This document shows, in pieces, positions 12,145 to 15,390 of a stretch of 64,000 bases of DNA (within the stretch, counting starts at the first letter, position 1; the number at the start of each line of letters is the position of its first letter). This DNA is from Clostridium sp. 'deep sea' (lineage in GTDB: Bacteria > Bacillota > UBA994 > PWPR01): NCBI RefSeq assembly GCF_014931565.1, contig NZ_CP063353.1:3534001-3598000 (forward strand), read 5' to 3'. The notes beneath the pieces are model-generated. The model saw nothing but the letters and a program-made list of their open reading frames with translations. It ran no database searches and had not been told where the DNA came from. A program made the position numbers and the translations under genes.

Positions 12145-12984
12145 ATGGGTAAATTAGTGAGCGCAGGTATTGCTCCGCACGGATCATCAATCATAGCTGA
12201 AATTGCTGGTAAAGAGCTAGAGCTATTTAAACCAACTAGAGATGCAATGATAAACTTAGGGAATCACATAATGAGTACTAAACCAGATACTATTGTAGTT
12301 TTAACACCTCATGGCATGAGGCTTAAAGACTTTAATGCTATTTACACTACAGCATACTGTAGAGGTAGTTTAAGTGCTAATAATAATACTGTTAGTTTAT
12401 CTTATAAATGTGATAAGGATTTGTCACTAAAAATACTTGAGCAAGCTACAGCAGAAAATATAGCCTCGGTAGGTTGCAACTATGGTTCCTTAAGTGGTAT
12501 TGGCTCAAACATAAATATGGATTGGGGAACCTTTATACCACTTTGGTTTTGTCAAGATGAAAGCTATCAGCCAGAGATAGTTGTAATAGGTCCAACCAGA
12601 GATATAGCTTTAACTGATTTAGTAAGATTAGGTGAAATTATTGCCGAGCAAATTATAAAAAGTAATAAAAATGTTGCTTTAATAGCAAGTGCTGATCAGG
12701 CCCATTGCCACGATGAAGAACATGCAAGCTTTGGTTACCATGAAGCAGCTAAACAATATGATGATAAAATATCAGAGTTAATTAAGCAAAACAAGCTAGC
12801 TGAGTTAGTTAACATGGATTTAAACTTTGTTGCAAATGCTAAGCCCGATAGCCTTTGGCAAATGCTGATATTATATGGAGCAACAAAAATAGTTCCTATG
12901 AAGGGTGAATTTTTATCCTACCAAGTACCAACCTATTTTGGTATGACAGTAGCCAAATATTATCCTGTTCAAAATGTTTTATAA
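12145..12984 (+). CDS. LigB/MEMO-like class III extradiol dioxygenase family protein
   Basis: Cytosolic protein of 279 residues in the LigB superfamily, which includes protocatechuate dioxygenase subunits and the MEMO/AmmeMemoRadiSam B proteins. Seen motifs are GIAPHG near residue 10, VVLTPHGMRL near 52, MDWGTFIPLWF near 130, IASADQAHCHDE near 180 and the C-terminal LWQMLILYGA. The His residues of the first two and the fourth would bind a metal. Ring cleavage needs oxygen, so in an anaerobe the natural role is uncertain. The ribosome binding site is AGGAGAGG. It is divergent from the Fur operon. Confidence 0.75.
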   Translation: MGKLVSAGIAPHGSSIIAEIAGKELELFKPTRDAMINLGNHIMSTKPDTIVVLTPHGMRLKDFNAIYTTAYCRGSLSANNNTVSLSYKCDKDLSLKILEQATAENIASVGCNYGSLSGIGSNINMDWGTFIPLWFCQDESYQPEIVVIGPTRDIALTDLVRLGEIIAEQIIKSNKNVALIASADQAHCHDEEHASFGYHEAAKQYDDKISELIKQNKLAELVNMDLNFVANAKPDSLWQMLILYGATKIVPMKGEFLSYQVPTYFGMTVAKYYPVQNVL

Positions 12985-13779: not shown

Positions 13780-13996
13780 TTAAAAGAGGAGACCTTCTTA
13801 AGTGATTTTCTATTAATATTTTTTGAAAACACTAAGAACTCTAAGGACACAAAGATGGAAATCTAAATATGGCACCTATCTATTTTGCTGTTCTTATATA
13901 ATATTGTTAACAGATAAATGTTTAATGGAAGTTTAGTTTAAATAATCCATAATATCTTGTATAATATTTTTAGAACATCCGAAGGGAGTGAGTGAT

Positions 13997-14038
13997 ATGG
14001 CAACTTACAAAAGTAAATTAATGGTGATTATTTACTAA
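13997..14038 (+). CDS. 13-residue leader peptide
   Basis: MATYKSKLMVIIY is preceded by AAGGGAGTGAG with eight bases of spacing and ends in TAA. It lies 90 bases before the attenuator terminator. Its only likely role is to report ribosome movement. The sequence shows no run of one amino acid, so amino-acid starvation is less likely to be the signal than ribosome inhibition. Confidence 0.65.
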   Translation: MATYKSKLMVIIY

Positions 14039-14128
14039 TAGAATAAAGAAACTATAACAAAGCATTATCGCTCATTGAACACTTTTAAAACTAAAGGTGT
14101 AATTTATTTTGCACCTAACTAATGAACG

Positions 14129-14160
14129 AATCGCAACTTGCTTTGCGATTTTTATATTTT
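14129..14160 (+). terminator. attenuator terminator
   Basis: Stem AATCGCAA (14129-14136) with TTGCGATT (14143-14150), six-base loop, tail TTTATATTTT. It lies 23 bases before the GTPase start codon, so it must be bypassed for expression. Confidence 0.75.
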
Positions 14161-14182
14161 AAAAGAAATTTCGGAGGATTAT

Positions 14183-15247
14183 ATGAATAAAAATATTATT
14201 AACACTGTTATAAGAGAATTTTTTACTAATCAGTGTAACAATAATTGTGAAAATATTGCACGCATTATCTCATGCAAAGGAACAATATATGGTTTATTAA
14301 CAACATACGGAAAGCAAAAAGCTAAACTTACTGGTAAGTTTATTCATAACATACAAGCACCAAAAGACTACCCGGTAGTAGGAGACTATGTTGAGTTTTG
14401 CAAGGTACAAAATAATGATTATCTTAGCATTAATAAAGTACTAAAAAGAAAAAATAAATTTTCAAGAAAAATGCCAATATCAGGAGGCAGAAAGTTATAT
14501 AAAGGAGTAATTGATGGGGGAATTACAGAAGAGCAGGTTATGGCGGCAAACATTAACTATGTATTAATTCTGGTGGCTTTAGATCAAAACTTCAACATAG
14601 CAAGATTAGAACGCTACATTTTATTGGCTAAAAGCTCAAATTTACATCCAGTTATCATACTTACTAAGCGAGATTTATGCCAAGATTACCAAAGTTATGT
14701 TAATAAAGTTAACGCTATAGACAGGGAGTTAGCTGTTTATGCTGTAAGCTCAATTACTGGTGCAGGAGTAAATAATCTAAATAGTTATTTAAAGCCCTAC
14801 TATACTATTGCTTTAATAGGCTCTTCTGGTGTTGGTAAATCTACATTACTAAACTATTTAAGCAGTAAAGAAGTGCAAAAAACCAAAGCTTTAAGTAGTT
14901 CTTCAGGAAAAGGTAAACACACTACTACCCATAGAGAAATGTTTTTTTTGGAGAATAACTGTATGATAATTGACATGCCTGGCATAAAGGAATTACAGCT
15001 GTGGCTGGAAATAAGTGATTTAAGATATCTGTTTAAAGATATAATGTTACTTGAAAAAAGCTGTAAATATAAAAATTGCAGTCATAAAAACGAAGCTGGC
15101 TGTGCTATAAAAGAAGCCTTAAATAATAATACATTATCACAAGATAGATATATAAGATATAAAAAACTAGTAAGAGAAGCAAATCGCTTAATAGAGAGAA
15201 AAGCGGAAAGAGAAAAAAAGACAAAAAAGAATAAAAAATATAACTAA
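14183..15247 (+). CDS. RsgA/YjeQ-like ribosome-associated GTPase
   Basis: Circularly permuted GTPase of 354 residues, longer than canonical RsgA (about 290-300). An OB-fold N-terminus (YPVVGDYVEF near 70) is followed by G4 (TKRDLC), G1 (GSSGVGKSTLLNYL) and G3 (DMPGIKELQ), then a zinc knuckle CKYKNCSHKNEAGCAI. A Lys-rich tail may touch rRNA. RsgA assists late 30S maturation. This divergent type is often a second copy, and the attenuator suggests it is induced by ribosome stalling. The ATG at 14183 follows CGGAGGA; the upstream ATG at 14138 lies inside the terminator. Confidence 0.88.
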   Translation: MNKNIINTVIREFFTNQCNNNCENIARIISCKGTIYGLLTTYGKQKAKLTGKFIHNIQAPKDYPVVGDYVEFCKVQNNDYLSINKVLKRKNKFSRKMPISGGRKLYKGVIDGGITEEQVMAANINYVLILVALDQNFNIARLERYILLAKSSNLHPVIILTKRDLCQDYQSYVNKVNAIDRELAVYAVSSITGAGVNNLNSYLKPYYTIALIGSSGVGKSTLLNYLSSKEVQKTKALSSSSGKGKHTTTHREMFFLENNCMIIDMPGIKELQLWLEISDLRYLFKDIMLLEKSCKYKNCSHKNEAGCAIKEALNNNTLSQDRYIRYKKLVREANRLIERKAEREKKTKKNKKYN

Positions 15248-15272: not shown

Positions 15273-15315
15273 AAAAATACTACAGTGGTTGCTTTGAGAC
15301 AACTGTAGTATTTTT
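15273..15315 (+). terminator. terminator after the GTPase gene
   Basis: Perfect 14-base stem AAAAATACTACAGT (15273-15286) with ACTGTAGTATTTTT (15302-15315). Confidence 0.85.
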
Positions 15316-15390
15316 ATTAAGAAATATTGTAAAAGAAAATAACTATTTAAATTTGGTATACTTATTGTAGAAAATTAAGGAGAGATCACT

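Follow-up and report, generated by a model that had tools for sequence, protein, structure and literature searches.

A predicted ribosome-responsive attenuator before a second RsgA-type GTPase gene, and comparable leaders across a long RsgA subfamily

A leader attenuator is often the sign of a gene that responds to blocked ribosomes, as with Erm, ABC-F and HflXr. Among the closest described counterparts of the locus presented here is hflXr (lmo0762) of Listeria monocytogenes with its leader rli80, an attenuated second copy of a ribosome GTPase that gives resistance (PMC6310831). RsgA itself takes part in a late step of 30S maturation, at the decoding centre (PMC9032327). Within its family, one of the two paralogues of Streptomyces coelicolor, SCO6149, is listed as WblC-activated and tetracycline-responsive (PMC7157823), and one transcriptome mentions a Lactobacillus plantarum 'rsgA2' by name only. 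In the open-access literature we found neither an attenuated RsgA nor, as a subfamily, the group of long RsgA proteins for which we coin the label RsgA-L in this analysis. Attenuation itself is a known kind of control, and our locus follows the hflXr layout of a promoter, a short ORF (14 codons in hflXr) overlapping an anti-antiterminator, an antiterminator and a terminator; in both cases the gene is the second copy of a ribosome-associated GTPase whose housekeeping copy lies elsewhere in the genome (PMC6310831).

The locus lies in a window of 64,000 nucleotides, the whole stretch of DNA analysed, from Clostridium sp. 'deep sea' (contig NZ_CP063353.1), and positions below are those of the window. 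At a probability of roughly 0.72, we read the region as a ribosome-mediated attenuator that senses ribosomes blocked near the start of its leader and controls transcription of a stress-inducible RsgA paralogue, the GTPase probably acting on 30S problems. The anatomy of the region, its alternative pairing, the predicted dependence on ribosome position and the recurrence before RsgA-L genes were all computed. The features are as follows.

13937..13965, + strand: sigma-70-type promoter TTTAAA-17-TATAAT (10/12 consensus match, no evidence alone)
about 13972, + strand: inferred transcript start
13983..13989, + strand: leader Shine-Dalgarno (SD) AGGGAGT; the AAGGGAG duplex with the anti-SD has -8.2 kcal
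13997..14038, + strand: 13-codon leader ORF, MATYKSKLMVIIY and stop (ATG 13997, TAA 14038)
13988..13997, + strand: segment 1, the leader SD/start and anti-antiterminator strand, partner 14066-14075
14058..14076, + strand: segment 2, partner either of segment 1 (via 14066-14075) or, as antiterminator (14058-14064, 14068-14076), of segment 3
14095..14116, + strand: linker hairpin AGGTGTAA/TTGCACCT between segments 2 and 3, which fits both states
14121..14145, + strand: segment 3 (14121-14129, 14139-14145), the partner of segment 2, overlapping the terminator
14128..14160, + strand: intrinsic terminator, stem 14128-14151 and U-rich tail to 14160
14173..14177, + strand: Shine-Dalgarno GGAGG of the GTPase gene (-9.5 kcal)
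14183..15247, + strand: RsgA-type GTPase of the long subfamily (RsgA-L), 354 aa (TIGR00157, PF03193)
15273..15317, + strand: inverted repeat and T run 3' of the GTPase gene, read by eye

The first-pass annotation had described a promoter, a 13-codon leader with a strong SD, alternative stems and a terminator 23 bases before the start codon, and all of these are present, the terminator tail ending about 23 nt upstream of the GTPase ATG at 14183. Its start coordinate for the element (13960) is too late, cutting off the -35 element of the promoter at 13937-13965. By itself the promoter call is weak, because shuffled versions of the whole region carry more promoter-like sites than the region itself; terminator-like sites number 2 against 0.4 expected. 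The repeat at 15273..15317 is a probable terminator, which would make the GTPase unit monocistronic. Two genes upstream, at 12145-12984, lies a LigB-type (extradiol dioxygenase / AmmeMemoRadiSam B-like) gene. A search of the leader DNA against its own genome returned no second copy.

The RNA from 13973 to 14183 folds at -50.1 kcal, against -30.2 +/- 3.8 kcal for its shuffles (z = -5.2, with 0/200 as good). Within it, the pairing of 13988-13997 with 14066-14075 is worth -11.5 kcal, a value equalled by 2/1000 shuffled targets, and a two-helix antiterminator (14058-14064/14139-14145 and 14068-14076/14121-14129; -12.7 kcal, with one A.C mismatch) competes with both this segment 1:2 pairing and the terminator. 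We scanned ribosome positions by masking a 30-nt footprint codon by codon and then letting folding choose between the stems. When no footprint was placed, or when the P site stood at codon 7 or beyond, the segment 1:2 pairing had a probability near 1, and the terminator stood at 0.76-0.79 for a transcript ending at 14147 and at 1.0 once fully transcribed. Placing the P site on any of codons 1-5, again with the transcript end at 14147, gave 0.65-0.91 for the second antiterminator helix and 0.03-0.12 for the terminator. These probabilities were computed with the leader start placed one base too far downstream, a shift of no consequence at such resolution; the comparison with shuffles used the correct start. 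In this masked-footprint computation, then, terminator and antiterminator are mutually exclusive and ribosome position sets the choice, better than in 25/25 shuffles; the switching score of 0.69 was reached by 0/25 shuffles that kept the terminator. Folding for two states had been suggested as a check by the first-pass annotation, and it does predict a terminator and an antiterminator that depend on where the ribosome stands. In the window element a fully transcribed terminator prevails at equilibrium even if a ribosome stands on codons 1-2, so antitermination relies on the antiterminator forming first, within a kinetic window. The generic leader-downstream pairing score of the element gives p=0.065 only, and, lacking a close homologue, the element offers no covariation signal of its own.

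The switch would operate as follows. When a ribosome is absent, or has moved past about codon 7, the leader SD/start would pair with segment 2, leaving segment 3 free to form the terminator and the gene off. A ribosome held on leader codons 1-5 would instead cover the SD/start and release segment 2, which could then pair with segment 3 while the terminator is being transcribed, turning the gene on. We infer that the leader is translated, and that ribosomes are held on it under ribosome-targeting inhibitors, in the cold or when 30S subunits are defective.

An alternative account would take the small ORF for a working small protein or a product of chance, and the terminator for one that merely ends an upstream transcript; short ORFs are indeed common and intergenic terminators normal. 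Recurrence of the arrangement bears directly on this. From named genomes we assembled 80 RsgA-L genes, 71 of them testable, with 206 neighbouring genes on the same contigs as controls, and counted as a leader any ATG ORF of 5-45 codons with an SD of -8 kcal or stronger, within 350 nt and after the previous ORF. Such strong-SD leaders precede 39/71 RsgA-L loci (55%) and 12/206 neighbouring genes (6%; Fisher p=8e-18), and a leader followed by a terminator is found at 17/71 loci (24%) against 1/206 controls (0.5%; p=3e-10). These same-rule controls, the lack of peptide conservation between lineages, and the placing of promoter, SD and terminator in one transcript on the same strand make the chance-ORF or small-protein account very improbable, and leader-peptide attenuation of an RsgA-like GTPase, the central claim of the first-pass annotation, is well supported by the recurring leaders together with the switch structures before RsgA-L.

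RsgA-L leaders occur in at least five phyla: at an SD threshold of -7 they were found in Bacillota (31/50), Cyanobacteriota (6/7), Planctomycetota (2/2), Myxococcota (2/3) and Actinomycetota (2/2), with single examples in Fusobacteriota and Vibrio. A fresh sample gave 9/21 loci with a leader by the same rule; by eye, three further loci have leaders that start with GTG or TTG. By the strict rule about 45% of RsgA-L loci have no leader; operonic proteobacterial loci seem to be without one, and none was clear in the plasmid records (Roseburia, Lysinibacillus, Trichlorobacter and several alphaproteobacteria). The leader peptides vary from lineage to lineage, with no amino acid enriched across them. 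Conservation of leader and stems in relatives, on which the first-pass annotation had staked its claim, thus holds for the architecture, which recurs before RsgA-L in several phyla, and fails for peptide and sequence, which are not conserved between lineages.

Several individual loci deserve mention. The cyanobacterial leaders (L041, L072, L079, L089, L104) start ATGACTGA or ATGACTGT and have unusually strong SDs, those of the RsgA-L genes themselves being weak. On a plasmid of Streptomyces sp. NBC_00842 (L138), an RsgA-like gene near a Tn3 transposase has a 23-codon leader (SD -11.5 kcal) and is immediately followed by a methyltransferase/N-acetyltransferase gene. In Listeria monocytogenes NZ_LR134403.1 (L136:3700-4969), RsgA-L lies between an mltG-like gene and pnp behind a short leader, MAIVKMENLIINTGVFYL, and a GCTCCC segment there can pair with GGGGGT of the leader or GGAGC of the gene; OR848648.1 (L128), labelled Listeria phage LM 4-14-1, has the same leader and flanks and is probably host DNA. 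Shorter RsgA proteins of a related family (about 300 aa; L022, L023, L025, L026) have leaders of 27-29 codons, several of them opening on a VF(F)C-like stretch, and a strong terminator immediately upstream of the gene. We considered recoding in L022-L026, where stops seemed to lie inside the genes, and rejected it, the stops being true C-terminal ones.

Pairing between leader and terminator or leader and SD recurs across lineages despite the differing peptides. The leader region is complementary to the region downstream (p<=0.05) at 21/48 loci against 2.4 expected from dinucleotide shuffles. Termination was relieved by early-codon occupancy only (D>=0.5) for 12/31 terminators, compared with 19/775 shuffles (2.5%), the 12 not all being independent because some come from close relatives or are two terminators of one locus. 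Examples of early-codon switching come from Fictibacillus (L039/L040), Bacillus (L043/L048), Cytobacillus (L054), Planococcus (L090) and Sporosarcina (L110); for leader-bearing L001, L010, L011, L017 and L045 the ribosome scan predicted no early-codon switching. L001 and L010, orthologues from the same genus, nevertheless keep three competing pairings in different sequence: leader end with the 5' arm of hairpin 1, the hairpin-1 stem, and its 3' arm with the 5' arm of the terminator. L001 (900-1260; G000:C1:3169651-3170011) is the other long RsgA gene of the genome of the window; its promoter is TTGACA..TATACT, its leader has 21 codons (MKKLQNNILASKLNALHIRIK), and terminator-like hairpins whose pairings compete stand there in tandem.

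Many clostridia carry GGGAGG within the leader, CCTCCC just after it and AGGAGG as the SD of the gene itself, and here control of RsgA-L looks translational. Across 15 clostridial elements, two leader:post-leader helices have 87% paired cells and two-sided changes in 7/14 pairs, and the covariation score of 0.233 exceeds that of shuffled alignments (0.116; 0/500 as high) and of slid ones (0.03-0.08). Equilibrium accessibility of the main SD was mixed among the translational variants, which do not all behave alike; for them we therefore rely on covariation, and the direction of control may differ from one to another.

What, then, might the leader sense? Amino-acid attenuation, in which it would track the aminoacylation of one particular tRNA in the manner of the trp and his operons, could draw on the two Ile, two Tyr and two Lys codons of the window peptide, and an early-codon logic would respond to starvation stalls too. 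The peptide, however, has no single-codon run beyond Ile-Ile, relatives' leaders share no enriched amino acid across lineages, and the target is a ribosome GTPase rather than a biosynthetic or transport gene; we regard this explanation as improbable. A direct RNA sensor (riboswitch or thermosensor), with the leader ORF incidental, would account for the stability of the alternative structures, but no Rfam family reaches its gathering cut-off in the leader region, no conserved aptamer-like core is seen, and the recurring features are a strong SD, a short ORF and base pairing in which the leader takes part, so that this idea is hardly credible. As to the R/K-x-R/K (+x+) macrolide-arrest motif, KSK at leader positions 5-7 fits it only loosely, and related leaders have no motif in common. 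Most nascent-chain-specific arrest needs a peptide longer than 1-4 residues, which suggests that the signal is a generic block of initiation or early elongation. Common to RsgA-L leaders are strong initiation, a variable peptide and structures that report ribosome position, and where a transcriptional switch is best resolved, occupancy of the first few codons is the predicted on state. Because the critical position lies at the very start of the leader and the peptides are not conserved between lineages, an attenuator of this kind most likely reads slow or blocked initiation or early elongation in general, not one amino acid or a peptide-specific drug.

The gene under control encodes a member of the RsgA GTPase family, with family activity predicted from its sequence: it scores 168 bits against TIGR00157 (cut-off 100) and 156 bits against PF03193 (cut-off 30), and has the OB fold, a circularly permuted G domain with intact TKRD, GSSGVGKS and DMPG motifs, and the Zn ligands C-C-H-C (C294 C299 H301 C307). 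The OB fold, permuted GTPase motifs and Zn ligands are common to RsgA-L and canonical RsgA (E. coli YjeQ, B. subtilis CpgA/YloQ), whereas the long form averages 352 aa against 293 aa (Bacillota forms compared) and carries subfamily-diagnostic residues that include R141, Y145, R251 and E270. In a tree of 104 sequences, 14 canonical proteins (including E. coli RsgA) split from the long forms on a 100/100 branch of length 1.9; two oddly long rows (L088/L101) are probably artefacts of RsgA mis-framing in GC-rich loci. The window protein falls outside the canonical group as a divergent member of the long one, keeping most diagnostic residues, and on an end branch of 1.63 its exact place is unsure. 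Its genome holds three RsgA genes, namely the canonical one, the second long one (L001) and the window gene. In the set of relatives searched first, a canonical copy accompanies the long form in nearly every genome, and RsgA-L is usually a second RsgA. On plasmid pMGMM7 of Lysinibacillus fusiformis (L133), a FosM fosfomycin resistance gene directly follows an RsgA-like gene that has no clear leader.

These relationships bear on a homeostatic reading, in which 30S subunits that are immature or slow would dwell at the start of the leader and induce extra RsgA with no link to antibiotics. The place of RsgA in late 30S maturation at the decoding centre (PMC9032327) and a sensor that reads start-proximal occupancy both suit such feedback. 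The canonical housekeeping rsgA of the same genome is not so arranged, however, being operonic with no room for a leader, and most genomes of the phylum lack RsgA-L (95/399 match at E<=1e-60, mostly RsgA-L); we judge this feedback unlikely, though plausible enough to be kept in mind. In the stress-inducible attenuator that we favour, the induced GTPase would act on decoding-centre or initiation problems of the 30S subunit through rescue, quality control or drug displacement. Because RsgA acts at the 30S decoding centre, a 30S problem would be the most economical input and output. More tentatively, and as a possibility only, RsgA-L may be a phylum-spanning, attenuator-controlled 30S target-protection or rescue GTPase, induced by ribosomes that 30S inhibitors trap at or just after initiation and clearing or resetting the decoding centre; if so, it would be the 30S counterpart of HflXr/ABC-F/TetM. 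Attenuators of unrelated sequence and the same logic, recurring across an uncharacterised RsgA subfamily, predict that a 30S GTPase has an overlooked role in ribosome stress or resistance, and the window unit offers a directly testable inducible promoter-leader.

Set beside known systems, the window attenuator is probably analogous to Listeria hflXr, reading ribosomes held near the start codon. The two differ in that hflXr belongs to the HflX family (50S/70S splitting) and has an RLR macrolide-arrest motif in its leader (PMC6310831), whereas the window element serves an RsgA-family (30S) protein, has no RLR motif and is predicted to be on when the first codons are occupied. The VmlR/ABC-F attenuators of Bacillota likewise combine a leader ORF with attenuation of both transcription and translation upstream of a protein that acts on the ribosome, but that protein is an ABC-F ATPase directed against 50S-targeting drugs, not an RsgA GTPase (PMC9226507, PMC10201436). 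SCO6149 is, like the window gene, a second RsgA; under transcription-factor control (WblC/WhiB7), it is comparable as an RsgA paralogue only (PMC7157823). Together with the hflXr precedent, a tetracycline- and WblC-induced RsgA paralogue in Streptomyces fits the putative inducer of the window gene, a ribosome-targeting drug or cold as the first-pass annotation supposed, and its putative role in protection or rescue of blocked 30S subunits. RsgA-L leaders also suggest sensors of start-codon occupancy instead of nascent peptide.
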